Shown: positions 52,238 to 64,000 of the stretch, one piece after another
Layout: each line of letters opens with the position of its first letter
Numbering within the stretch: the stretch's first letter is position 1
From: Mesorhizobium shangrilense
GTDB taxonomy: Bacteria > Pseudomonadota > Alphaproteobacteria > Rhizobiales > Rhizobiaceae
Length of the DNA: 64,000 bases
Reading direction: 5' to 3'
Assembly: GCF_028826155.1 (NCBI RefSeq)
Contig: NZ_JAQGPN010000001.1
Location: forward strand, 928,501-992,500
Made by a program: the position numbers and the translations under genes
The notes under the pieces: model-generated
What the model saw: the letters and a program-made list of their open reading frames with translations, nothing else
Database searches by the model: none
Told to the model about the DNA's origin: nothing

Positions 52238-53215
52238 TCAGTCCGGGACCACCTTCCAGCTGTCGTCCGGGTTGAAACGGTCGATGTACTTGACGATCTG
52301 CTCGGTCGCCGGCCCCAGATCGGCCTCGTAGACGATGCCGCTCTGGTTGACCGCAAACGTCTTGACGCCTGTCTCGCCGTAGGTGATCGGCCAGGCGAGC
52401 AGGCCGAAGCCTGCGATCATGTTGCCGTTAATGATGTAATCGTAGGCGCCGCCGGCGATCTGGTCGCCCTGGCCGGTCAGGATGCGGAAGCGATAGCCGA
52501 AATAGCCCTCGCCCTTTTTGGCTCCCTCGAGCTCTGCCTGGTCGGCAAACTCGCCAGCCGGGCTTTCGCCGTTGATCTCGTCGGTCGGCCAGTAGAGCCC
52601 GTCAGTCATGCCCTCGCTGCTGACGAGCTTCTGGGCGAATTCGAGCACGCCGTCGCCATCCCTGTCCTCGTCGGCGTAGTCGCGTTGGGCTTCGACATAG
52701 TCCCGCGCCGTTTCGATCGCCTCCAGCTCGTTCTCGCCCACCCGCCGATTGACGATTTCCTCGAGCCCGGCGTAGGTGTCGAAAGCCCATTTCCCGTCCT
52801 GACCCTTCACCAGCGGAAACGGCAGCGGCCAGAGCTTCGCGCCGATGGCCAGCAGCTTGCGGTCGTCGCCACCCTTCACGATCAGCTGCCTTGCCGTGCC
52901 TTCGCGCAGCAGCTTGAAGGTTTCCGCGGCATTTTCATCGGCTTTCAGCTTTTCGGCATCGAGCCCGAAAAGCCGGGCGAGGGCGCCGATATCGTCATCG
53001 GCAAGCGCCGTCTTGTACGCCGCCAGCGCTTCGTCAACGCTGTCGAAGGCCGGCGGCTCCTCGGCCGCGGCCAAGGACGAAATGTCGGGTGCGGCCTCGG
53101 AGACGTCGGCGGCCTCCTGTGCAAACGAGGTCGTGGACGTCAGGCAGGTTGCGGCGCCAAGCAGCGCTGAGATGCAGATCGAGCCGGCGAGCATGGTTCG
53201 AAAGGTCGTGTGCAT
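52238..53215 (-). CDS. DUF2950 family exported protein
   Basis: 325 residues. Signal peptide residues 1-33 (TSFAQEA). DUF2950 features: FDSVDEALAAYKTALADDD, LPFPLVKGQDGKWAFDTYAGLEEI, RDYVEAQRDYADEDRDGDG and FGYRFRILTGQG. No biochemical role is established. It follows DUF3300 by 24 bases on the same strand as last gene of a four-gene envelope operon. The DxDxDG stretch could bind calcium (by analogy only). Confidence 0.85.
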   Translation of the reverse strand: MHTTFRTMLAGSICISALLGAATCLTSTTSFAQEAADVSEAAPDISSLAAAEEPPAFDSVDEALAAYKTALADDDIGALARLFGLDAEKLKADENAAETFKLLREGTARQLIVKGGDDRKLLAIGAKLWPLPFPLVKGQDGKWAFDTYAGLEEIVNRRVGENELEAIETARDYVEAQRDYADEDRDGDGVLEFAQKLVSSEGMTDGLYWPTDEINGESPAGEFADQAELEGAKKGEGYFGYRFRILTGQGDQIAGGAYDYIINGNMIAGFGLLAWPITYGETGVKTFAVNQSGIVYEADLGPATEQIVKYIDRFNPDDSWKVVPD

Positions 53216-53239
53216 TGTTGCGTCTCCTCTTGCTCGATC

Positions 53240-54694
53240 TCAGCGCCGACCGCCGCCACCGCGGCCGCCGCCGCCGCCTCGGCCACCGCCACCTCCAAAA
53301 CCGCCACGTCCACCGCCGCCGCGACTGATGTGGTGTCCGCCGCCGCGGCTGCCGCCGCCCATCGATTGGCGGCCTCGATTGGAATGCACCTGGGAAACCT
53401 TGCCGCGGTTCACGTTACCCAACCCCGACTGCTTCCTCGGTCGATTGTCGACGCGCCCTGCGGCCTTCGGCTTGCCCGCCGGCCGCGTGACCTTGCTGGG
53501 CTTCCCCGAACCTTGCCGCGCGACGTCGCGCTGCCCCGCGCCCTGCCGTGCAACGTCGCGCTGACCTGCTGCCGGCCGCGCTCCCTGCTTGCCGATGTCG
53601 CCGCGCGCCCTGGCGGCAGCGGCAGGCTGCTTCAGCCCCTCCAGCGTGTTCTTGCGGACGTCGGCCGCCTTCGCGCTCCTGCCCGGAAGATTGCCGGCTG
53701 CATTGCGCGCCTTGAGGTCCGTCGCGCGGTTGCGGATCGAGTTGTCGCTGTTGGCCTTCACCCTGTTCTTGACATTCGTTCGGTCGAGCTTGGCGAACTG
53801 GCTCTTGTCGAAGTTGATCTTCGAACGGTCGACGTTCTTCCAGTCGACATCGTTGAAGTCGAGCTTGCCGTTGAAATTGCGGTTGTTGAAGCAGTCGTTG
53901 CAGTCGATATCCAGGTCGCCGCCGTCCCAGCGGCCGCCCCACACGCCCCAGTCGTCCCAGTCGACGGCGGCCGCCCAGATCGCTCCGGTCACTGTCGCCG
54001 CAAAGAAAGTCGCCCCGGGATACCAGTAGGACGGGTAGGGTTCCGGGTAGTACTGGATCGGCTGAGGCGGGTAGTCGTCGACATAGAGCATTTCGGGCTC
54101 ATAGCGGGGCACATAGACGACTTCGGTGCCGGACGACTGGATGATGACATTGTCGTTTTCGGTCGTCACCTTCATCTTGTCGTCCGACTTGATGATGCCC
54201 TTGGCGACCGCTTCCTCGCGCAGCTGTTGGATGGCGATCAGCACGTCCTTCTGCTGGTAGGCGATGGCATCGCCCAGGCTCTGGGTCCAGTCGAGGTCGT
54301 CGCTCATCATCTTGACGACCTCGGGATAGTTGAGGAGCGAGATGATGCTGCCGTCCCAGGTGTCCTTCGGCTTCAGGCTCTTGTCCTTGGCGTAGCTGTC
54401 AAGGTAGCGCGACGCCTCCACGATCTGCAGCGGATAGAGCGCGGCGGCAGAGATCAACGCGACGAGTTCGTCCGGATAAAGCGCGATCCGCGCAACCAGG
54501 ACCTCCAGCTCGTCGGCGGTGAGAGGCGTCGGGCTCGTCGCCGGAGCGCTCGCATCGGCAGCCGTCGGAGCACTCGCATCGGCTGCCGGCGGGGTCGTCT
54601 TCTCCTGCGAGAAGGCCCAGGGTGGGTTCGCTGTGGCCACAAACAGGCCGAACATGCCTGCCGCAGCGGTTTTAAGGAGAGTTCCTGCCCGCAT
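53240..54694 (-). CDS. DUF3300 family exported protein with Gly/Arg-rich tail
   Basis: 484 residues. Signal peptide residues 1-29, then the DUF3300 domain (about 60-260): LVARIALYPDELVALISAAALYPLQIVEA, then VVKMMSDDLDWTQSLGDA and VVYVPRYEPEMLYVDDY. A central Asn/Asp/Lys-rich segment and a tail of about 40 residues rich in Gly/Arg/His (HHISRGGGGRGGFGGG) follow. Role unknown; DUF3300 and DUF2950 genes often sit together. AGGAG precedes the ATG. The tail is low-complexity and could bind polyanions. Confidence 0.85.
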   Translation of the reverse strand: MRAGTLLKTAAAGMFGLFVATANPPWAFSQEKTTPPAADASAPTAADASAPATSPTPLTADELEVLVARIALYPDELVALISAAALYPLQIVEASRYLDSYAKDKSLKPKDTWDGSIISLLNYPEVVKMMSDDLDWTQSLGDAIAYQQKDVLIAIQQLREEAVAKGIIKSDDKMKVTTENDNVIIQSSGTEVVYVPRYEPEMLYVDDYPPQPIQYYPEPYPSYWYPGATFFAATVTGAIWAAAVDWDDWGVWGGRWDGGDLDIDCNDCFNNRNFNGKLDFNDVDWKNVDRSKINFDKSQFAKLDRTNVKNRVKANSDNSIRNRATDLKARNAAGNLPGRSAKAADVRKNTLEGLKQPAAAARARGDIGKQGARPAAGQRDVARQGAGQRDVARQGSGKPSKVTRPAGKPKAAGRVDNRPRKQSGLGNVNRGKVSQVHSNRGRQSMGGGSRGGGHHISRGGGGRGGFGGGGGRGGGGGRGGGGRR

Positions 54695-54727: not shown

Positions 54728-55516
54728 TCAGGTCTTCGGGAACAGGAAGGTGATCGTCGTGCGGATTCCCCATTCGGGACCGTCGTCCGGACCGTCGAGA
54801 TAGACCCTGCCGCCGAGTTGCAAGCTCACCGGCTGCTTGCCGAACTTGGTCACTTTCGAAATCGCGAGATTGAGCGGCACGGTCCACTGACCAGCCGTCC
54901 AGTCGTAGGTCGACTCGAAGTTTCCCGAGAGAGTTACGCCGCCGCCCAGGGCATAGGTCAGGAAGGGCTGCATGAACGTCTGGTTGACGTCAGCGCGCTC
55001 GTCGTCGCCAGCCACCGACCAGATGTGGTTGACCAGTGCGCCGAACGTCCACTGCCCTTCCTGAACCAGAGCGACGGCGGTCGGGCCAAGGCCCCATTTT
55101 TCTGTGCCGAGGGCGTCGTCGGTGGCTGTCGGCAGAAGGAAGACCGGACCGACGCCCCATATGAGACCGCCGGGCCCAGGCACCTTGGGCGAGAAGAACA
55201 GGCTTTGCGTGATGTCGCCGATACCGGCCGGGTCACCCGGGAGATAGTCGCGATAGGCGATGGGCAGGATCGTTCGCGAGATCACGTTCCAGTCTTCGGT
55301 CAGCGAGAACGGGATGACCGGCTCCACGTCCAGCGTATAGGCGAAGCCGTCGTCGTCCGGCCCTGCGCCGAAGTCGAAATTGTTCTGGAAGGGAAGGCTG
55401 ATGAGACTGGCGACGGGGTTGGCCAGTTGCTTGGCCAGCTCATCCGCGTCCTGCGCGGTTGCGGCGGAGGCGCAAATCGCCACCGCCAGCGCACCAGGAG
55501 CGGTGCGCATCAACAT
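54728..55516 (-). CDS. Outer-membrane-like protein (neuromedin U-type annotation family)
   Basis: 262 residues; signal peptide (ALAVAICASAATAQD). Mature sequence is beta-rich: ANPVASLISLPFQNNFDFG, DVEPVIPFSLTEDWNVISRTILP, GIGDITQSLFFSPK, ending GIRTTITFLFPKT with a terminal strand as in beta-barrels. Proteins of this kind are usually annotated as transporter or phenol-degradation MetA-like. ATG 55516 follows GGAGGG; the frame reaches 55540. Second gene of the envelope operon, 32 bases from the first and 33 from DUF3300. Confidence 0.72.
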   Translation of the reverse strand: MLMRTAPGALAVAICASAATAQDADELAKQLANPVASLISLPFQNNFDFGAGPDDDGFAYTLDVEPVIPFSLTEDWNVISRTILPIAYRDYLPGDPAGIGDITQSLFFSPKVPGPGGLIWGVGPVFLLPTATDDALGTEKWGLGPTAVALVQEGQWTFGALVNHIWSVAGDDERADVNQTFMQPFLTYALGGGVTLSGNFESTYDWTAGQWTVPLNLAISKVTKFGKQPVSLQLGGRVYLDGPDDGPEWGIRTTITFLFPKT

Positions 55517-55548
55517 GTGCCCTCCGCCTGGCGTCGTCATGGCGTGCC

Positions 55549-56340
55549 TCAGAAGTGCATGGACAGCCCGAGGATCGGGCCGTGCTGCACAACGTCGAAC
55601 AGGAACCCGTCATCGCTGTAGTCGACGCCGAGGGCGCGATAGCCCAGCACCGACGAGATGCGGTCGTTGAAACGATAGCCCACGGCTCCCGCGACATCCC
55701 AATCGAGATCGGCTTGGCCGGCCCCTACAAGGCCCCAGCCGGTCAGAAAGACTTTCGGCGTGATCGAGTAGTTTCCGCGAATGCCGGCCAGCGCGTCCAC
55801 CCAGGTGGCCCCGTCGGAGGGCGAGAAGCCGTTGAGTGGTCCGCCGCTGAAGGAGATCTCCGTGTCGACCGACCACACCCTGACGCCGGCAACGATGTCG
55901 AGGCGCGCGTCGGGCTGGTCGATGATCGCATATCCGCCGCCCACCAGTCCGGCAAAGGTTTCCGAGGTCACCTCGACGCTCGTCGCCAACAGGCCCAGTG
56001 GCGTGCCATCCTGGCCGGAAATCTTCGTATACATGATGTCGCCGAAGACGCTGTAGCGGCCGTAACGCGCGTCCATGATCGCCATGGCGCCGAACTTGAG
56101 GTGGTCGAAGATATCGCTGAAGCTCGCGTCGACTTCGATGGTAGGCGATCCTAATTGCGCCAGATCTCCCGACAGACCAGCCGCCCAGAAGTAGGGTGCG
56201 ACCGTGAACGTCCAGCCTGAATCAGTCTCCACCTGCATGACCTCCGGGGCCACCGGCGTATAGACATCCGCCGCGTTGGCGCTTTCGGCGACCCCAAGCG
56301 CCGCAACGCACACCAGTACACGAAATGCTCTCATTCCCAT
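55549..56340 (-). CDS. Outer membrane beta-barrel protein
   Basis: 263 residues; signal peptide residues 1-24 (ESANA-AD). The mature part has alternating hydrophobic strands (FTVAPYFWAAGLSG; YSVFGDIMYTKIS; FAGLVGGGYAIID; VVQHGPILGLSMHF) with a C-terminal Phe, the usual barrel signature. GGAGGG at good distance supports the ATG at 56340 rather than the in-frame one six bases later. It heads the envelope operon, facing the Asp-rich protein gene on the other strand. Confidence 0.78.
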   Translation of the reverse strand: MGMRAFRVLVCVAALGVAESANAADVYTPVAPEVMQVETDSGWTFTVAPYFWAAGLSGDLAQLGSPTIEVDASFSDIFDHLKFGAMAIMDARYGRYSVFGDIMYTKISGQDGTPLGLLATSVEVTSETFAGLVGGGYAIIDQPDARLDIVAGVRVWSVDTEISFSGGPLNGFSPSDGATWVDALAGIRGNYSITPKVFLTGWGLVGAGQADLDWDVAGAVGYRFNDRISSVLGYRALGVDYSDDGFLFDVVQHGPILGLSMHF

Positions 56341-56784
56341 GTAATCCCTCCAGCATGAGGCGGCGGATCGGCGCATAGCTTGCAGTATAGCCTTTGAGCT
56401 GACGTTGGGGGAGGGCATTCGGAGCATGTTACTGTTACATGCCGATAAAACCCTGGCGTGAGCCCGAACAGCAACACAGTTGATCTTCAGGGCTGCCTCT
56501 GACGTCGTCTCTCCTGTTGGCTGGGTCACGATGGCGGAACGGCCACCGTAAGGAGTCAGCCGGCTGCTGCTGCGGACGTTTCTGCCCGCTTCGGGTAGGC
56601 AAGATTGGGTGAAAGAACCTCCGGAAGGATGAGTTCGCGCGCCGGCGGGCCGGTGCGAATGCGCTCTCTTGGCACCAGATGCGCCTTTGCGCTTCGCCCG
56701 ACTTGGCAACTATTCCCGATCATCGAAAGGTGGAATGCTCCGAGCCAAGCGCACCTCTACGTTGCGCAGGGATGGAGGATTCAA
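56341..56784. other. 444-base divergent intergenic region
   Basis: Between the envelope operon and the first Asp-rich gene. I saw no conserved frame, repeat or clear operator. An open frame continues into it from the Asp-rich gene but lacks conserved or acidic character. Both promoters must lie here. Confidence 0.55.
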
Positions 56785-57414
56785 ATGAACCCCGACGACG
56801 TTGCCGGAAACAACATCGACGATCTCGAATTGGACGTCGACCAGATCTCCCAGATCGATGATGACGTTCAACTTGGGGTGACGGTGATCGGTTCGTCGAA
56901 GCCGATCATCGAACTCGACACAGAAATCGACCAGAACGGTGAGGAGGACCAGGACCTCGACGTCGATGTCGACTCAAGCGATCAACAGGGCGAGGATATC
57001 GGCGTCGAAACCGAACAGCGGCCCGAAGTGGACCAGAGAGTCGAGGTCGATGTCGAGGTCAGCGAAGACGACGGGGTCATCGTCGTCGAGGTCGATGCGG
57101 AGGTCGAGGACGATGTCGAGATCGAAGACGACGTCGACGTGGATGTCGATGAAGACGACGATTTCGAAGTCGACGCCGAAATCAAGCAGGATGACGAAAC
57201 CGACAGCAATGTCGACGTGGACATAGAGGTTCGCGACGACCTGGGCGCCGACGTGGGCGTCGACATCGCGGCGCTGGTTGGTACTGCGGTGGATGCCGCC
57301 ATCGCGGACGAGAAAGATGACGACGGCACCAAGATCGACGTCGACCTCGATGACAAGGCCTGGGCCGATGCCGACATCGGCATCATCGTCGACCTGAGCG
57401 ACTTCGGCATATAG
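56785..57414 (+). CDS. Asp-rich alternating-repeat protein 1, putative type I secretion substrate
   Basis: 209 residues without cysteine and with no signal peptide. Well over a third of residues are Asp/Glu (by eye), in an alternating pattern with Val/Ile such as VEVDVEVSEDD and DDVDVDVDEDDD; DQ/VDQ motifs recur in the N-terminal half. The C-terminus ends DLSDFGI (aspartate plus hydrophobic residues), similar in style to C-terminal signals of PrtD-exported proteins. ATG 56785 follows GGAGG at ideal spacing. A strong terminator follows. It is next to a second Asp-rich gene and a type I ABC exporter. Alternating acid/hydrophobic residues suggest a beta-solenoid, possibly calcium-dependent. Confidence 0.72.
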   Translation: MNPDDVAGNNIDDLELDVDQISQIDDDVQLGVTVIGSSKPIIELDTEIDQNGEEDQDLDVDVDSSDQQGEDIGVETEQRPEVDQRVEVDVEVSEDDGVIVVEVDAEVEDDVEIEDDVDVDVDEDDDFEVDAEIKQDDETDSNVDVDIEVRDDLGADVGVDIAALVGTAVDAAIADEKDDDGTKIDVDLDDKAWADADIGIIVDLSDFGI

Positions 57415-57850
57415 GAGCCCGCCTCGCGGGTCAGGCGGAACGGCGCTGGCTCGCCGTTCCGCCTTTTCGTTTCGTAAAGCTTCTTCTTGCGCGGCGACCC
57501 GGCCTCGTGTCGGGTGCGCTGCGCAGTGTGTGAAACCCGCGCCGCCCCGCGAGCAGTCGCGCTTTGCCGCTTCAGAGAGGGCAGGCCGCCGGTTCCGGCA
57601 GTATTCCAACCCATCGCGGTTCATTCGTTCCGGTAGGCCGTCACCCATGCGGGTGAACCCAGTCGCACCTTGAAGGGCCCGTTGGGCGGAACGCCTATTG
57701 GCAGCTGTTTTCCGCCGACGGAAAAGGGAATGCTCCCTGCCTTCGACCGGTTGAGGGGATACCCCCAGGGGTCGCCTTCGCAGCCATCGATGCGTTGGGC
57801 CAGCGAGTGCTGGCCTGGCGTCTTTTCCACCGACAGGGAGGGAAAATCCC
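57415..57850. other. 436-base intergenic region between the Asp-rich genes
   Basis: Contains the terminator at 57434-57474, then about 370 bases without a convincing gene. Short GC-rich palindromic pieces (for example GGGGATACCCCC) occur near 57757. The second Asp-rich gene thus probably has its own promoter here. Confidence 0.55.
57434..57474 (+). terminator. Intrinsic terminator after Asp-rich gene 1
   Basis: Perfect 12-base stem GGCGGAACGGCG / CGCCGTTCCGCC with a six-base loop, followed by TTTTCGTTTCG, starting 20 bases after the stop codon. Confidence 0.85.
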
Positions 57851-58309
57851 ATGGCTCCTAGCAAACACAAAGACTCGGACGGCGATAGCAGACACACCGA
57901 CATCAAGATCGATATTGATCCCGATATCTATCAGGATCTCGATCAATATCAGGATCAGGACGTCGACGTTGATACCGATCAGGACTCCGACATCTACAAC
58001 GACAACAAGAACAGTGCGGATGTCGACAACAAGACTGATCAGGACGCATACACCGACAATGACGCCAAGGCTCACGCTGATGCTGACGCCGACGGCAAGA
58101 AGAAGGGCGGCGATGCCCACGCGAAGGCCAAGGCTGACGCCGACGGTGACGCCGACAACGACAACGACACCGACCAATACGTCGACCAGAGCAACAAGAA
58201 CGACAACGACGTAGACCAGAAGCAGGACGTCGACGTCGATGTCTATCAGGATCAGTATGCAGACCAGTATGCTGACATCGACATCGATTTCGATTTCGAC
58301 TTCGCCTGA
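57851..58309 (+). CDS. Asp/Asn/Gln-rich repeat protein 2, putative type I secretion substrate
   Basis: 152 residues, no cysteine, about one third aspartate by eye. Segments: DIKIDIDPDIYQDLDQYQDQD, an Ala/Lys patch with AKAKADADGDAD, and a terminal DVDVDVYQDQYADQYADIDIDFDFDFA. Recurrent VDQ/YQDQY units match protein 1 and protein 3. The C-terminus ends Asp-Phe-Ala preceded by DFDF, again acid plus hydrophobic. GGGAGGG precedes ATG 57851. No family recognised. The product is expected to be extremely acidic and disordered or calcium-ordered. Confidence 0.72.
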   Translation: MAPSKHKDSDGDSRHTDIKIDIDPDIYQDLDQYQDQDVDVDTDQDSDIYNDNKNSADVDNKTDQDAYTDNDAKAHADADADGKKKGGDAHAKAKADADGDADNDNDTDQYVDQSNKNDNDVDQKQDVDVDVYQDQYADQYADIDIDFDFDFA

Positions 58310-58326
58310 TCGCACCGTCTGAGGCA

Positions 58327-58353
58327 CCGCGCCCGGGCCTTCTCCGGGCGCGG
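58327..58353 (+). terminator. Hairpin between Asp-rich gene 2 and the exporter gene
   Basis: Ten-base perfect stem CCGCGCCCGG / CCGGGCGCGG with a seven-base loop and no T-tract. It lies 18 bases after the stop and eight bases before the exporter start, so it may reduce read-through (attenuate) or stabilise the substrate mRNA. Confidence 0.55.
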
Positions 58354-58360
58354 CATTCAA

Positions 58361-60721
58361 GTGCTCCACGCCGGCCGTGGCCTCCAGTCGCCACCAATGG
58401 GCGTAAGCAGCGTCGTGTTCCTGCGGAGACCGTCCGTGATCATCGATGGGTTGAAGGTCCGCACCGCGAGCGGGCTTGCGCACGTTCGCGATCTCTTCGA
58501 AGCGCTGCTTCTGGCGGCGCTGGTCTTGCGCTTTGCAGGAGGTTCCCTGACAAAGGGTCGCCCGAGCGCGCAAACGCGCGGCGTGAGTCTCGGGCAAAGA
58601 CTGGCAGATTGGCGTTCGTGGCTCGCCGCGACCCTTGCCCGTCCCATAGAAGCGATATCCGCATGCACGATATCCGCGTTCCAATTGCCTCGGCTGTATG
58701 GGACAGCCGCAGTGGATCGTTTGCGTAGAGCCTCCCAGCAGGGGTGGGCTTCGCTTTCGCTCGGCGTTCGGCGTGCCCGCGCGGCCATTGCCGACGCCTC
58801 GACCGCCATGAAGGATCGGACGACGGCGGCTTTCGCCGAAATCCGGGCCGCCCTGCGGAAGCTGCTGAAGAGACGCGGGGAGGAAGGCGTTCGACGACTG
58901 CGCTGGCGCGACACGGCGCAGGCAGGCACGGCAATCGAGCAGGCGTTCCGTCTTTGCCGACCCTCGCTGGCGATGATCTTCGGCCTGAGTTTCTTCGTGA
59001 ACCTCCTGGCGCTAACGGTCCCGCTCTATCTTCTTCACGTCTATGATCACGTGCTGGCGAGCCTCAGCATCGATACGCTGGTGATGCTGACGCTGATCGT
59101 GATCGTGGCGCTGGCGGTCCACTCCATGCTCGAGGGCCTGCGGCGGGCGATGCTGACCAAGATCGGCGGCTGGCTCGATGACAGCCTCCAGGCTCCGGTC
59201 CTCACCTCGGCGGTGCAGGCCGCCATGCGCGGCGACGCCGCCTCGGCTGCGCAGGCGTGGCGCGATCTTGCAAGTCTGCGGACTTTCTTCGGCGGCAGCG
59301 CATGCACGGCTCTGTTCGATCTGCCGTGGACCCCGATCTTCCTTCTCACCATGTTCCTCATTCACCCGCTGCTCGGCGCGATCGGACTTCTCGCTTCGTT
59401 CGTGCTCCTCGGGCTTGCGGCGCTCAATGAAAGGGTGACGCGCAAGCCGTTCGCCCGCTCCAGCTCCGCCTGGGTCGAAAGCCAGCATCGGTTCGAGAGT
59501 TTGATGCGCAATGTCGAGGCGATCGGAGCGATGGGCATGCTGCCGGGCGTTGCGCGCCTGCTCCAACGGGACCAGGCTGATGCGCGCGAGGCGCAACTGG
59601 TGGCAACCTCGCGCGGGTCGGCCATCCAGGCGGTGGCGCGCTTCGTGCGGCTCCTCGCGCAGGTCATCATCATGGCCTGCGCCGCCTGGCTCGTGATCAA
59701 GCATGATGTCAGCCCTGCGGCGATCTTCGCGACGACGATCCTGCTCGGCCGGTCCCTGGGGCCGGTGGAAGGCGCGATCGGAACCTGGAAGGCGGTCAGC
59801 GGGCTGCGTCTGTCCTACGGGCGCCTGCGCAAGCTCATGGCAGCCGCGCCGCCGGCTGTTGCCGGCATGCAACTGCCGCAACCCCGCGGAGAACTCGCGG
59901 TAGAGCAGGTGACCTTCATGCCGACCGGCGCGGACAGGCCAGCCGTCAACCGGGTAAGTTTCGTACTCGAACCCGGGGAAGTGCTCGGCGTGATCGGGCC
60001 GTCCGGCGCGGGAAAGTCGACGCTCGGCCGGCTCATCGCCGGGGCCGTCTCGCCGACCACAGGCCATGTGCGTCTCGACTCCGCGGACATCGCCATCTGG
60101 CTGGCGTCCGGCGGCCAGCGCTACCTGGGCTATCTTCCGCAGGACATCGAGCTGTTCGGCGGCTCGGTGCGCGACAACATCGCACGCCTGCAGGAGACGT
60201 CCTCGGAAAAGGTCATCGCCGCCGCCAACATGGTCGGCCTGCATGAGCTGATCATGCGCCTTCCGCAAGGCTACGACACCGATATCGGGGAAGGCGGCAG
60301 GCGGCTTTCCGGCGGGCAGCGGCAGCGATTGGGGCTTGCACGCGCCTTCTTCGGCTATCCGCGCCTGATCGTGCTCGACGAACCGAACGCCAGTCTCGAT
60401 GCGGAAGGCGAGGAGGCGCTGCGGCAGGCCATCGACGAGGTGCGCGCGAAGGGATCAACGATCGTCGTCATCGCCCAGCGTCTCGGCATCCTCAGCATGG
60501 TGGACAAGATCCTGGTGCTCGACAACGGCAGGCTTGATGCGTTCGGCAGCCGAAGCGACATTGCCGGCAAGATCAGGGCGGGGCGCACCAGCCTGCCGGC
60601 CCGCCGACAGGTCATCACCGCCACGAGTTCCGTCCGGCAGGTGGAGCGCGACGGCCGCAAGCTGACCATCGCCACGAATGGCGGCATCAAGCGGGAGGAA
60701 CCGGAATGGGCCGGCTCCTGA
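58361..60721 (+). CDS. Type I secretion ABC transporter (PrtD-like) with N-terminal extension
   Basis: 786 residues from GTG 58361; alternatives are ATG 58397 and ATG 58808. Residues 1-190 form an Arg/Ala-rich helical extension without homology to C39 peptidase or known domains. The membrane part (about 200-480) has the PrtD pattern (LALTVPLYLLHVYDHVLAS; FDLPWTPIFLLTMFLIHP). The nucleotide-binding domain shows Walker A GPSGAGKST (547-555), signature LSGGQRQRLGLARAF and Walker B LIVLDEPNASLD. It would export unfolded substrates from the cytoplasm to the outside with the HlyD-type adaptor and a TolC-like channel. PrtD-like proteins usually have about 560-590 residues, so the length is unusual. 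It overlaps the adaptor gene by 16 bases. Confidence 0.9.
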   Translation: MLHAGRGLQSPPMGVSSVVFLRRPSVIIDGLKVRTASGLAHVRDLFEALLLAALVLRFAGGSLTKGRPSAQTRGVSLGQRLADWRSWLAATLARPIEAISACTISAFQLPRLYGTAAVDRLRRASQQGWASLSLGVRRARAAIADASTAMKDRTTAAFAEIRAALRKLLKRRGEEGVRRLRWRDTAQAGTAIEQAFRLCRPSLAMIFGLSFFVNLLALTVPLYLLHVYDHVLASLSIDTLVMLTLIVIVALAVHSMLEGLRRAMLTKIGGWLDDSLQAPVLTSAVQAAMRGDAASAAQAWRDLASLRTFFGGSACTALFDLPWTPIFLLTMFLIHPLLGAIGLLASFVLLGLAALNERVTRKPFARSSSAWVESQHRFESLMRNVEAIGAMGMLPGVARLLQRDQADAREAQLVATSRGSAIQAVARFVRLLAQVIIMACAAWLVIKHDVSPAAIFATTILLGRSLGPVEGAIGTWKAVSGLRLSYGRLRKLMAAAPPAVAGMQLPQPRGELAVEQVTFMPTGADRPAVNRVSFVLEPGEVLGVIGPSGAGKSTLGRLIAGAVSPTTGHVRLDSADIAIWLASGGQRYLGYLPQDIELFGGSVRDNIARLQETSSEKVIAAANMVGLHELIMRLPQGYDTDIGEGGRRLSGGQRQRLGLARAFFGYPRLIVLDEPNASLDAEGEEALRQAIDEVRAKGSTIVVIAQRLGILSMVDKILVLDNGRLDAFGSRSDIAGKIRAGRTSLPARRQVITATSSVRQVERDGRKLTIATNGGIKREEPEWAGS

Positions 60722-62070
60722 GAGCAGACAGCCGTGTGCTGGCTTCGGATCTTTCCGACATCCTGCCGCAACCCGCCGAAACCCCGTTTCGCAGGCTGCA
60801 TGCACTCACCGTCGCCGCCTTCTCGATCGTCGGCGTGTTCATCGTCGGCTTCGGCGTGTGGGCGACGTTCGCGCCGCTGGAAAGCGCGGCCATTGCGGGA
60901 GGGGCCGTGGAGGCCGAAACAAGCCGCAAGATCATCCAGCATCTGGAGGGCGGAATCGTGGAACGCATCCTCGTGAGCGATGGCGACGAGGTCGTCGCCC
61001 GCCAGCCGCTGATCCGGCTGGACAACACGAGGGCGCGCACCGCCGTCCAGGTGCTTCAGGTCCAGCTATGGGAAGCCCAGGCCAACGAGGCGCGTCTGCT
61101 GGCCGAGCGCGACGGCGCCCCCTTGGTGTTCCCGCCGGATCTGCGCTCTGCCGCCCGCAGCGATGCGGATCTGGCCGAGATCATGGCCGGGCAGACCAAG
61201 ATCTTCGAGACCCGCCGGCGCCTGCAGTCGTCGCGGGTCGATGTAATCCTGCAGCGCAAGGCCCAGACGGAGCAGGAGATCGCGGCCTTGCGGCACCAGG
61301 CGGACGCGGCCAGCAAGCGCGCCGCGATCATCAGGGACGAACTGGCGACCGTCGCCCCGATGGTTTCCAGCGGCCTGCAGACCCGCGCCCGGCTGTTGCT
61401 GCTCGAGCGCGAGCAGGCCGAGATCGAAGGACGCATCGGCGAGACGCTGGCGCAGATCTCGCGGGCGGAGCAGGCGATCGGGGAATCGATGGCGATGATC
61501 CTGAAGCTCGAGAGCGACGAGCAGACCGAGATCGCACAGGCGCTCCACACGACGCAGGCCGGGATCTTCGAACTCCTCGAGCGCAGCCAGGCAGCCAACG
61601 ACGTGCTCGCCCGAACCATCGTGCGCGCACCGGTGGCGGGCACGGTGACCAACCTGCGCCTTCACACGCGGGGAGGCGTCGTGGCGGCCGGCGAGCCCCT
61701 CATGGAACTGGTCCCGCGTCAGGACCGGCTGATCGTGCTGGCGCAGGTCAAGCCCGAGGATATCGATCTCGTGCGCGCGGGGCTCGACGCCCGCGTGCGC
61801 CTGCTGGCCTACAAGCATCGCAGGGTTCCGCCTGTCGAGGGCGTCGTCACCTATGTCTCCGCCGACCGCGTGGTCGACAAGGCGACGGATCAATCCTTCT
61901 ACCTGGCCCGCGTGCGCATCGACGAGGCCTCGCTGCGGGCGCTCCCCGATGTCGAGATGATGCCCGGAATGCCAGCTGAGGTCATGATCAAGACCGGGAC
62001 CTTCACCATCGCCCATTACGTGCTGCGGCCGCTCTTCGAGAGCTTCAACCGGGCCTTTCGGGAGGATTGA
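60706..62070 (+). CDS. HlyD-family periplasmic adaptor (type I secretion)
   Basis: 454 residues: a membrane helix at about 36-58 (SIVGVFIVGFGVWATF), a lipoyl-like half (IAGGAVEAETSRKIIQHLEGGIV, VSDGDEVVARQPLIRLD), a long coiled coil and a C-terminal barrel (FTIAHYVLRPLFESFNRAFRED). PrtE/HlyD family. It links the ABC exporter to the outer membrane. The start overlaps the exporter gene by 16 bases, so the two are coupled. Confidence 0.93.
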   Translation: MGRLLRADSRVLASDLSDILPQPAETPFRRLHALTVAAFSIVGVFIVGFGVWATFAPLESAAIAGGAVEAETSRKIIQHLEGGIVERILVSDGDEVVARQPLIRLDNTRARTAVQVLQVQLWEAQANEARLLAERDGAPLVFPPDLRSAARSDADLAEIMAGQTKIFETRRRLQSSRVDVILQRKAQTEQEIAALRHQADAASKRAAIIRDELATVAPMVSSGLQTRARLLLLEREQAEIEGRIGETLAQISRAEQAIGESMAMILKLESDEQTEIAQALHTTQAGIFELLERSQAANDVLARTIVRAPVAGTVTNLRLHTRGGVVAAGEPLMELVPRQDRLIVLAQVKPEDIDLVRAGLDARVRLLAYKHRRVPPVEGVVTYVSADRVVDKATDQSFYLARVRIDEASLRALPDVEMMPGMPAEVMIKTGTFTIAHYVLRPLFESFNRAFRED

Positions 62071-62088
62071 GGAGCGAACGATCCTGCG

Positions 62089-63195
62089 ATGGCGACGACC
62101 GTGGATGTGACGCGACGGCATTCCCCCGACGGGGGAGTTCCGGTCCCTCCTTCAGACCGGGGCGAGCGGGAACTGCTGCCGCCCGAACGGTCGCATGACG
62201 CAACGATCCGCGCTGCCGAAACGGACACCGGCGACCACGCAGCGGCAAGGGAAGCGCCGAGCGCCGTTCATCAGGATATGGGGCGTCCGGCGGCCGACGC
62301 TGCGACGCCGCCCTCCGGCTGGACCGTGGTGGACGATGGCGGCGAGCGAGCGGAGGCGGACCTGGTCTCGGGCGTCTTCCAGCCGGCGGCTACGCCCCGC
62401 GCGTTCGATGCTCACGAAAGCGGCCCGCCGCCGCTCTTCGATACGCTTGAGGTGACGTGGCGCGTGCCTCTTCAGGAATCGCCCGCGGCTTCCCCCGGCC
62501 CACGAGCCGAAGCGCCGGCAGCGCCGTCGCGCGATGGCGGGACCGAAGGCGCGCCCGAAGCGACCCACCCCAATCCGGCCAGCGCTCGCGCCGAGGACGG
62601 CGAGGCTCGCGACGGGCACAGCGTCACCGTCACGCAGGACGCGGTGGTCGAGCAGGACGCCGCGCTCTTCGTCAGCGGCTATGTCGGGGAGGTCGTCGCC
62701 CGCCTGCATATCGACCAAAGCCTGGTGATGCTCCAGAACGTGGACATTTCCTTCACCATCGACGGGGACGGGCGTTTCTCCATCCGGCTAGACCAGGACA
62801 TGACCATCGATCAGGCCATCGACATCCACCTCAGCATCTTCGACGCCGATGGCGTGCTCTACGTGGATCTGTTCCTGCGCGATTCGATCGTCGTCGAGCA
62901 GGAAACCTTCGCCGATATCGAAATCGGCGACGGCATTGCGGGCGGCGACGTCGTCATCGACCAGCACCTGACCCTCGATCAGGATGTCGACATCGAAGTC
63001 GACATCGAGGACGAACTGGAAGAGCGTTATGCCGTGACCGTGACCATCGACGTGGCGCAGACGATCGACGCCGACCAGGACGCTATAATCGGCATCACGA
63101 GCCAGGACGATCAGCTCGACATCGATGTGGATGCCGCCCAGTCGGCGATGATCGAACAGGACACCATCGTGCATGCCGATTTCGTACTGATCTGA
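62089..63195 (+). CDS. Pro-rich and DQ-repeat protein 3, putative secreted substrate
   Basis: 368 residues. The first about 185 are Pro/Ala/Gly/Glu-rich and disordered. The rest is a beta-repeat region in which xDQ or xEQ recurs roughly every ten residues (VVEQD, HIDQS, RLDQDMTIDQAIDI, VVEQE, VIDQHLTLDQDVDIEVDI, IDADQDAI, MIEQD). It shares the DQ plus alternating Asp/Ile style with proteins 1 and 2. No signal peptide. C-terminus ends HADFVLI, aspartate followed by four hydrophobic residues, similar to known C-terminal export signals. It follows the adaptor gene by 18 bases and is likely co-transcribed. No known family. Confidence 0.72.
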   Translation: MATTVDVTRRHSPDGGVPVPPSDRGERELLPPERSHDATIRAAETDTGDHAAAREAPSAVHQDMGRPAADAATPPSGWTVVDDGGERAEADLVSGVFQPAATPRAFDAHESGPPPLFDTLEVTWRVPLQESPAASPGPRAEAPAAPSRDGGTEGAPEATHPNPASARAEDGEARDGHSVTVTQDAVVEQDAALFVSGYVGEVVARLHIDQSLVMLQNVDISFTIDGDGRFSIRLDQDMTIDQAIDIHLSIFDADGVLYVDLFLRDSIVVEQETFADIEIGDGIAGGDVVIDQHLTLDQDVDIEVDIEDELEERYAVTVTIDVAQTIDADQDAIIGITSQDDQLDIDVDAAQSAMIEQDTIVHADFVLI

Positions 63196-63217
63196 GAACC
63201 GGCCACCCGGATCGCGA

Positions 63218-63238
63218 GCGAGCCAAATCCGGGCTCGC
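63218..63238 (+). terminator. Possible terminator hairpin after gene 3
   Basis: GCGAGCC, seven-base loop, GGCTCGC: a seven-base stem located 23 bases after the stop codon. It is followed by CGAAAATCC, without a real T-tract. Confidence 0.4.
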
Positions 63239-63356
63239 CGAAAATCCTTCCAATTTGAAGCAAATCCGACCGTCTTAACCATATCCGCAGTCGAGGCTGG
63301 CGGATTAACGGCCGTTTATCGTATAAAAACGGAGGGCGGCAGCAAGCGGGACGTGG

Positions 63357-64000
63357 ATGGCACACTCGTATCCGGCCGAGTCGCTAGGTTCATTCTACGA
63401 GCGCCCTTCGATCATCGTCATCAATCGCAGTCCATTTCTGCGAAGCTGCGTGGCGCGCATCCTGCGAAGCGAATTCGAGGAATTCTCGATCGTCGAGATC
63501 GAGGCGGCGCAGCAGCTCGACGCGACCGGAAACAGGCTGGTTGGGCTGGTCGCCCTCGACATCGCAAGTTCCGCCATGACCGACGACGAGGTGCTGCGGG
63601 ATCTCGCCTGCGTTCGGCGATCCTCGGGTGACGTCCCGGTCGTGCTGTTCACCAGCCGCGACGAGGCGAGCATCCCGGACGCGGTGATCTCGGAGGTGAT
63701 GCGCTTCGGCGCCAGGGGCTATGTCACCCAGTCGACATCGATCGAGATCGCGCTTGCGGCGATCCGGCTGGTCATCGCGGGCGGCGTCCATTTTCCGCGC
63801 TCGATGTCCATCGACAGTCAAGACCTGCCGGTCGACACGGCCGCCGCCCTGCCGTCACCTGTCCCGGCGCCGGCGGTCGAACTGCCGGCCGCGCCCAACA
63901 CCGCCTCCTTCACCGAGCGTGAACGGCAGGTGCTCGCGTCCCTGCTGCGCGGGATGTCGAACAAGGTCATCGCGGGCGAGCTGAACCTGTCGCAGAACAC
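63357..64000 (+). CDS. LuxR/NarL-family response regulator, 5' part (window edge)
   Basis: The frame is open from ATG 63357 to the window end (214 codons). Residues 15-130 resemble a receiver domain, with a candidate phospho-acceptor Asp in VALDIASS and the conserved Lys position replaced; the acidic pair that normally binds magnesium (DD) reads Asn-Arg (IVINRSPFLR). Then a Pro/Ala linker and the beginning of a LuxR-type HTH (FTERERQVLASLLRGMSNKVIAGELNLSQ). So phosphorylation control is doubtful. It lies directly after the secretion cassette and is a candidate regulator of it. The 3' end is not in the window. Confidence 0.85.
   Translation, partial: MAHSYPAESLGSFYERPSIIVINRSPFLRSCVARILRSEFEEFSIVEIEAAQQLDATGNRLVGLVALDIASSAMTDDEVLRDLACVRRSSGDVPVVLFTSRDEASIPDAVISEVMRFGARGYVTQSTSIEIALAAIRLVIAGGVHFPRSMSIDSQDLPVDTAAALPSPVPAPAVELPAAPNTASFTERERQVLASLLRGMSNKVIAGELNLSQN

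Follow-up and report, generated by a model that had tools for sequence, protein, structure and literature searches.

A 64-kb stretch of the Mesorhizobium shangrilense genome (positions 928501-992500 of contig C1; hereafter the window) ends in a gene set that we interpret, with moderate confidence, as a type I secretion cassette dedicated to acidic proteins with beta repeats, which would belong to an extracellular matrix or fibre. The source genome comprises 5.5 Mb in five contigs. Between window positions 56785 and 64000, six co-directional genes on the plus strand encode two candidate substrates (DV1 and DQ2), a PrtD-type ATP-binding cassette (ABC) exporter, an HlyD-type adaptor, a third candidate substrate that is named after its alignment (A1fam) and the N-terminal part of a LuxR-type regulator. 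A preliminary description of this DNA had placed these six genes, and re-reading the open reading frames (ORFs) bore out their positions and shared strand. Dedicated export of the three proteins is very likely, and a role in a matrix or fibre is our best guess at what they are exported for. The features are as follows:

56785-57414, plus strand: DV1, candidate substrate of 209 residues, rich in Asp, Glu and Val (27% Asp, net charge -71)
57433-57464, plus strand: terminator-like hairpin of 13 pairs, 3' of DV1
57851-58309, plus strand: DQ2, candidate substrate of 152 residues, rich in Asp, Gln and Asn, with conserved N and C ends and a variable spacer
58361-60721, plus strand: PrtD-type ABC exporter (TIGR01842), start codon uncertain, model match from residue 199
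60706-62070, plus strand: HlyD-type periplasmic adaptor (TIGR01843)
62089-63195, plus strand: A1fam, DQ-repeat protein of 368 residues with the C-terminus ADFVLI
63357-64000, plus strand: LuxR-type regulator of which the window includes the first 214 residues, with a receiver-like N-terminus and the first part of a GerE helix-turn-helix

The window PrtD matches TIGR01842 with 628.5 bits (cut-off 510.15) and the HlyD protein matches TIGR01843 with 366.7 bits (cut-off 208.65), which identifies them as a type I exporter and its adaptor. A TolC-type gene (TIGR01844, 344 bits, cut-off 225.15) is present in the genome as a single copy over the cut-off and is unlinked to the cassette. The start of the HlyD gene overlaps the end of the PrtD gene and only 18 bases separate the end of HlyD from the start of A1fam, an arrangement consistent with a single operon. 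The 13-pair hairpin suggests that DV1 would be a separate transcription unit; the region holds three terminator-like sites against 4.2 expected from shuffles, and the hairpin behind DV1 is notable for its stem length alone.

Evidence for a cassette comes from its conserved neighbourhood. Named genomes scanned with the A1fam alignment yielded at least 18 loci, which are held by Phyllobacterium, Mesorhizobium, Aminobacter, Pseudaminobacter, Microvirga, Ensifer and a Xanthobacteraceae metagenome-assembled genome. PrtD and HlyD lie within the 8-kb flanks of A1fam in 18 of 18 loci among the matches listed. The preliminary description had called the region a type I secretion cassette and had asked for profile searches and an inspection of the neighbourhood. 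Its proposal is well supported by this linkage, and the situation it had named as counter-evidence, homologues that mostly stand without a type I exporter, is the opposite of what was found for A1fam. A DQ2-like protein adjoins PrtD in all 18 listed loci, a LuxR relative is present in 17 (none was seen in L010) and DV1 in 14. Ten of them (L004-L007, L009, L011, L014-L016, L020) keep the full one-strand order DV1-DQ2-PrtD-HlyD-A1fam-LuxR, and L010 shows the same order with the exception of LuxR. When ORFs of 90 amino acids or more from the 18 listed loci were clustered all against all, no additional gene class was shared by three or more of them; the other clusters, judged by one printed example each, lie across cassette genes in a different frame or on the opposite strand. 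Hence, the cassette appears to be a self-contained module whose surroundings vary.

The exporters themselves are related. In a tree of 47 rows (19 cassette exporters and 28 others, four loci being left out), the 19 cassette exporters are set apart from the rest by a branch with support 100/99, and the other PrtD of the source genome (L023) falls outside this clade. The exporter L033 of genome G032 joins the cassette exporters with support 100/100, several non-cassette rows including L033 being long branches. The window system differs from other PrtD/HlyD-type exporters in the separate clade that its exporter joins within these rows and in cargo candidates that lack RTX nonapeptides. Two or more GGxGxD motifs in one protein were seen in the short flanks of three of 24 exporter loci from other genomes (L036, L040, L057). 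The N-terminal extension of the window PrtD gave no convincing match to three further long PrtD ORFs from the cassettes. An Ensifer PrtD ORF (L016:3659-6157) seems by eye to repeat its N-terminal segment in tandem, which is either a real extension or an overcalled start.

RTX repeats are the usual mark by which type I cargo is recognised. The three window candidates carry none and reach no Pfam or NCBIfam cut-off. They are free of cysteine and of GGxGxD, as the preliminary description had stated in setting them apart from standard RTX proteins. Across the families, cysteine is missing from 15/15 DV1, 19/19 DQ2 and 60/79 A1fam proteins, and GGxGxD occurs in 0/15, 4/19 (one to eight each, all Gly-rich Microvirga forms) and 5/79, respectively. 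The claimed lack of signal peptides fits the outcome of a crude regular expression: eight or more consecutive hydrophobic residues within the first 40 were found in none of the 15 DV1, 19 DQ2 and 79 A1fam proteins. Among the DQ2-like proteins of the 18 listed loci, 14 are Asp-rich, with L021 as the most divergent (36% identity to window DQ2), and four are Gly-rich (L013, L017-L019) and retain ends that are rich in DQ (N-terminal) and in F/D (C-terminal). In these Microvirga counterparts long Gly-rich spacers, some with GGxGxD, separate the conserved ends, and the DQ2 proteins of L013 and L017 match no Pfam family at an E-value of 1 or better.

DV1 and DQ2 appear to be real coding genes, since third codon positions vary most between homologues (differences at positions 1/2/3 of 0.30/0.24/0.54 for DV1 and 0.29/0.23/0.50 for DQ2). 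Their composition is also patterned beyond what it would produce by chance, as judged from 2000 shuffles of each sequence. The pattern [DE]-nonpolar-[DE] occurs 24 times in DV1 (8.8 expected) and 12 times in DQ2 (2.6 expected), counts reached by no shuffle, and eight times in A1fam residues 174-368 (4.0 expected; P 0.03). The alternation of Asp with Val or Ile that had been ascribed to all three proteins therefore holds for DV1, DQ2 and the C-terminal half of A1fam, but not for A1fam residues 1-173, which are rich in Pro and Ala. Likewise, DQ dipeptides are in excess in DQ2 (P 0.004) and A1fam (P 0.005), but not clearly in DV1 (P 0.10).

The further suggestion that the three candidates form one exported family is supported in part. 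The profiles of DV1 and A1fam align over 175 columns with 96% probability and a score of 71. As controls, 180 column-shuffled profiles score up to 53 with a probability of up to 92% (10-column blocks); a score of 57 and a probability of 94% are obtained against A1fam when the DV1 profile is reversed. Alternation alone thus accounts for much of the score, and kinship of DV1 and A1fam is likely, judging from these alignments, rather than proved. For DQ2, in contrast, the matches to the DV1 or A1fam profiles are of low probability and span 14-22 columns; the divergent L021 DQ2 gave an unmasked BLAST match to A1fam. A profile search with DV1 returned 20 matches, the weakest of which (P0103) is an A1fam member by sequence, and one with DQ2 returned five, the three inspected being Microvirga-like.

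A database search with A1fam gave 78 homologues in addition to the window copy, among the best 7995 word-sharing candidates that were scored. AlphaFold2 (AF2) gives residues 1-173 a predicted local distance difference test score (pLDDT) below 50. The best model predicts seven strands of 19-26 residues each, with block means of 81-94 across residues 181-368, and six of the seven strands carry a Gln-x5-Gln pair. The predicted C-terminal fold found no fold match in the PDB. Invariant positions of the family alignment include Gln and Gly, and distances between Gln residues peak at 6, 21, 26-27 and 32-33. A GTRDLLP-like motif, identified by a regular expression, is found near the N-terminus of 60 of the 79 A1fam proteins, and the window copy reads GERELLP near residues 21-33.

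The C-terminus of A1fam offers a possible export signal. A1fam copies at the 18 listed loci end in D[FL] followed by three mostly non-polar residues. A strict motif, an acidic residue plus three to four non-polar residues, Ser or Thr to the end, is present in 18/18 locus copies and 72/78 database homologues, compared to 5/178 background ORFs. With one to four residues allowed after the acidic one, the motif is found in 14/15 DV1 and 15/19 DQ2 proteins and in 19/178 background ORFs. A C-terminal motif of this kind may be what guides PrtD-type export, a role that was not found described in the passages searched of two reviews (PMC3034196; PMC8277102). In our model, such a short C-terminal signal would guide the three acidic low-complexity proteins through PrtD, HlyD and the TolC encoded elsewhere in one step. 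A1fam might then fold outside the cell as seven long strands of amphipathic character, their Gln pairs in register, and, together with the more acidic and less ordered DV1 and DQ2, build a polyanionic and probably cation-binding surface matrix or fibre that could serve attachment.

Expression of the cassette may be turned on by the adjoining LuxR-type regulator with its receiver-like domain. All six regulators searched with Pfam contain GerE (E 4.3e-8 for the window protein), and one of them (L017) shows a receiver domain weakly, below the cut-off. In the alignment of 17 cassette regulators, the residue that by eye is the likely phosphorylation site is Asn in 12 and Lys or Arg in five; it is Asp in the window regulator and in the regulator of L058, a related locus described below. 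LuxR proteins with degenerate receivers, such as CsgD and VpsT, are known to govern matrix genes. In Vibrio vulnificus, the VpsT homologue BrpT controls the cabABC operon (PMC6978666).

Several observations weigh against export and assembly as outlined here. Few DV1 (4/15) and DQ2 (2/19) proteins have the strict C-terminal motif. DV1 was not found in four of the 18 listed loci (L013, L017, L018, L019). A single operon is not universal: L012 and L017-L019 carry the exporter genes on the strand opposite to A1fam, and L008, L013 and L021 have a LuxR gene in reverse orientation between HlyD and A1fam. As the loci were chosen by A1fam, complete linkage means that A1fam implies the exporter and not the converse. 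Moreover, the A1fam fold is the best of five AF2 models (whole-protein means 60.4, 56.2, 54.2, 43.4 and 41.3; predicted template modelling score 0.48), and the DV1 model is poor with a mean of 38.3.

Five sister cassettes extend the picture. L058 (the G032 locus), L067, L068, L069 and L070 each combine PrtD, HlyD and a LuxR-type gene with a Gly/Asn-rich repeat protein of 388-507 amino acids, and their HlyD proteins end in SFNRAFRED or a similar sequence. Of the sister exporters, the tree includes that of L058 alone (as L033); the others were assigned by their identity to it (91% and 52-55%). The L058 LuxR protein is 31-36% identical to the 17 cassette LuxR proteins. Similar to the window, four of the five sisters encode a short low-complexity protein just upstream of PrtD, and none was detected before PrtD of L069 at the filter applied. 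Unlike the window, their main cargo candidate is the Gly/Asn-rich protein and not an Asp-rich one. Q-x7-Q motifs recur every 74-94 residues in the three large sister proteins scanned, and the two proteins of L058 reach no Pfam cut-off. The large L058 repeat protein contains ETRPLLEDLP, which is akin to the GTRDLLP-like motif of A1fam. The sisters suggest that the window cassette belongs to a wider exporter class that lies beside Gln-patterned low-complexity proteins. A far-reaching and tentative reading would be an undescribed type I class of Hyphomicrobiales, with an exporter clade and LuxR regulator of its own, for Gln-ladder proteins of at least two flavours (acidic DQ and Gly/Asn-rich) that would form cation-gated, polyanionic, amyloid-like fibres with a fold new to the PDB.

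The candidate substrates could also be explained differently. Curli repeats are patterned such that Gln ladders stack. A functional amyloid, with A1fam as nucleator or structural subunit, the other proteins modulating polymerisation and Gln ladders stacking as in curli-type repeats, is possible, if on balance doubtful: the recurrence of Gln-x5-Gln pairs at 26-27 residue spacing, QTNNVxFDQSAxQ-like repeats in proteins beside the sister exporters and the neighbouring LuxR-type gene, reminiscent of BrpT over cabABC (PMC6978666), speak for it. However, a net charge of -40 on the 195-residue C-terminal domain of A1fam disfavours stacking unless cations neutralise it, and AF2 yields a single-chain fold with long strands. 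We regard as unlikely that the proteins are soluble buffers of calcium or other metals, or nucleate minerals, and build no structural matrix. An Asp content of up to 46% in the DQ2 family would suit such a role, and BapA, a protein introduced below, has been compared with aspein-type shell proteins (PMC5588039), but the invariant Gln, Gly and other positions of A1fam exceed what a charge polymer needs.

The cassette occurs in a few bacteria of soil and plants, and its distribution is rare and patchy. A1fam was detected in one of 61 relatives, one of 397 genomes of the order and one of 385 of the class, in each case the window's own genome, and is absent from all three congeners examined; DV1 was likewise detected in one of the 397 order genomes, again the window's own. 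As at most five to seven candidates were scored per genome in the order and class scans, weak relatives have possibly been missed. Such patchiness would fit a secreted effector or bacteriocin-like cargo acting in competition or host interaction, which nevertheless seems very improbable given that no further gene, for instance for immunity, is common to three or more listed loci and that no catalytic domain was matched in Pfam or NCBIfam. Finally, type I cargo genes can be unlinked to their exporter and the source genome has two PrtD genes above the cut-off, but linkage in all listed loci and a single exporter clade that excludes L023 leave little room for the idea that unrelated acidic genes merely flank a generic exporter whose true cargo is RTX proteins encoded elsewhere.

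A dedicated matrix cassette would have several counterparts, likened here by published description. The nearest is BapA of Paracoccus denitrificans, an extremely acidic Asp-Ala repeat protein that adjoins the type I genes BapBCD and is required for attached growth, which calcium stimulates (PMC5588039). The window differs in its three shorter proteins, its alternation of Val, Ile and Gln, its predicted seven-strand domain and the lack of a linked TolC gene. A long Asp-Ala tract of the BapA type was not found, DQ2 containing short DA runs only and its relatives short DADADA runs. The cabABC operon is parallel in design, as a matrix protein has its own type I exporter CabBC under biofilm regulators including a VpsT homologue (PMC6978666), although it encodes one calcium-binding matrix protein whereas the window has three candidates. 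Rhizobial PrsDE secretes the matrix-linked Rap proteins by the type I route (PMC9298526); these share Ra/cadherin-like domains, in contrast to the window proteins, which reach no Pfam cut-off. No description of the cassette was found among open-licence PMC papers.

Surface matrices serve bacteria of this group for attachment to roots and soil. Fibre formation by the cargo would add to bacterial matrices an acidic type of fibre that is exported by type I secretion. Searches based on RTX repeats would miss the cassette, and the linkage of exporter, cargo and regulator makes the system easy to test. Next to the cassette, two proteins without a Pfam match (54728-56709, minus strand) adjoin an adjacent pair of DUF2950 and DUF3300 proteins (52238-54694, minus strand).

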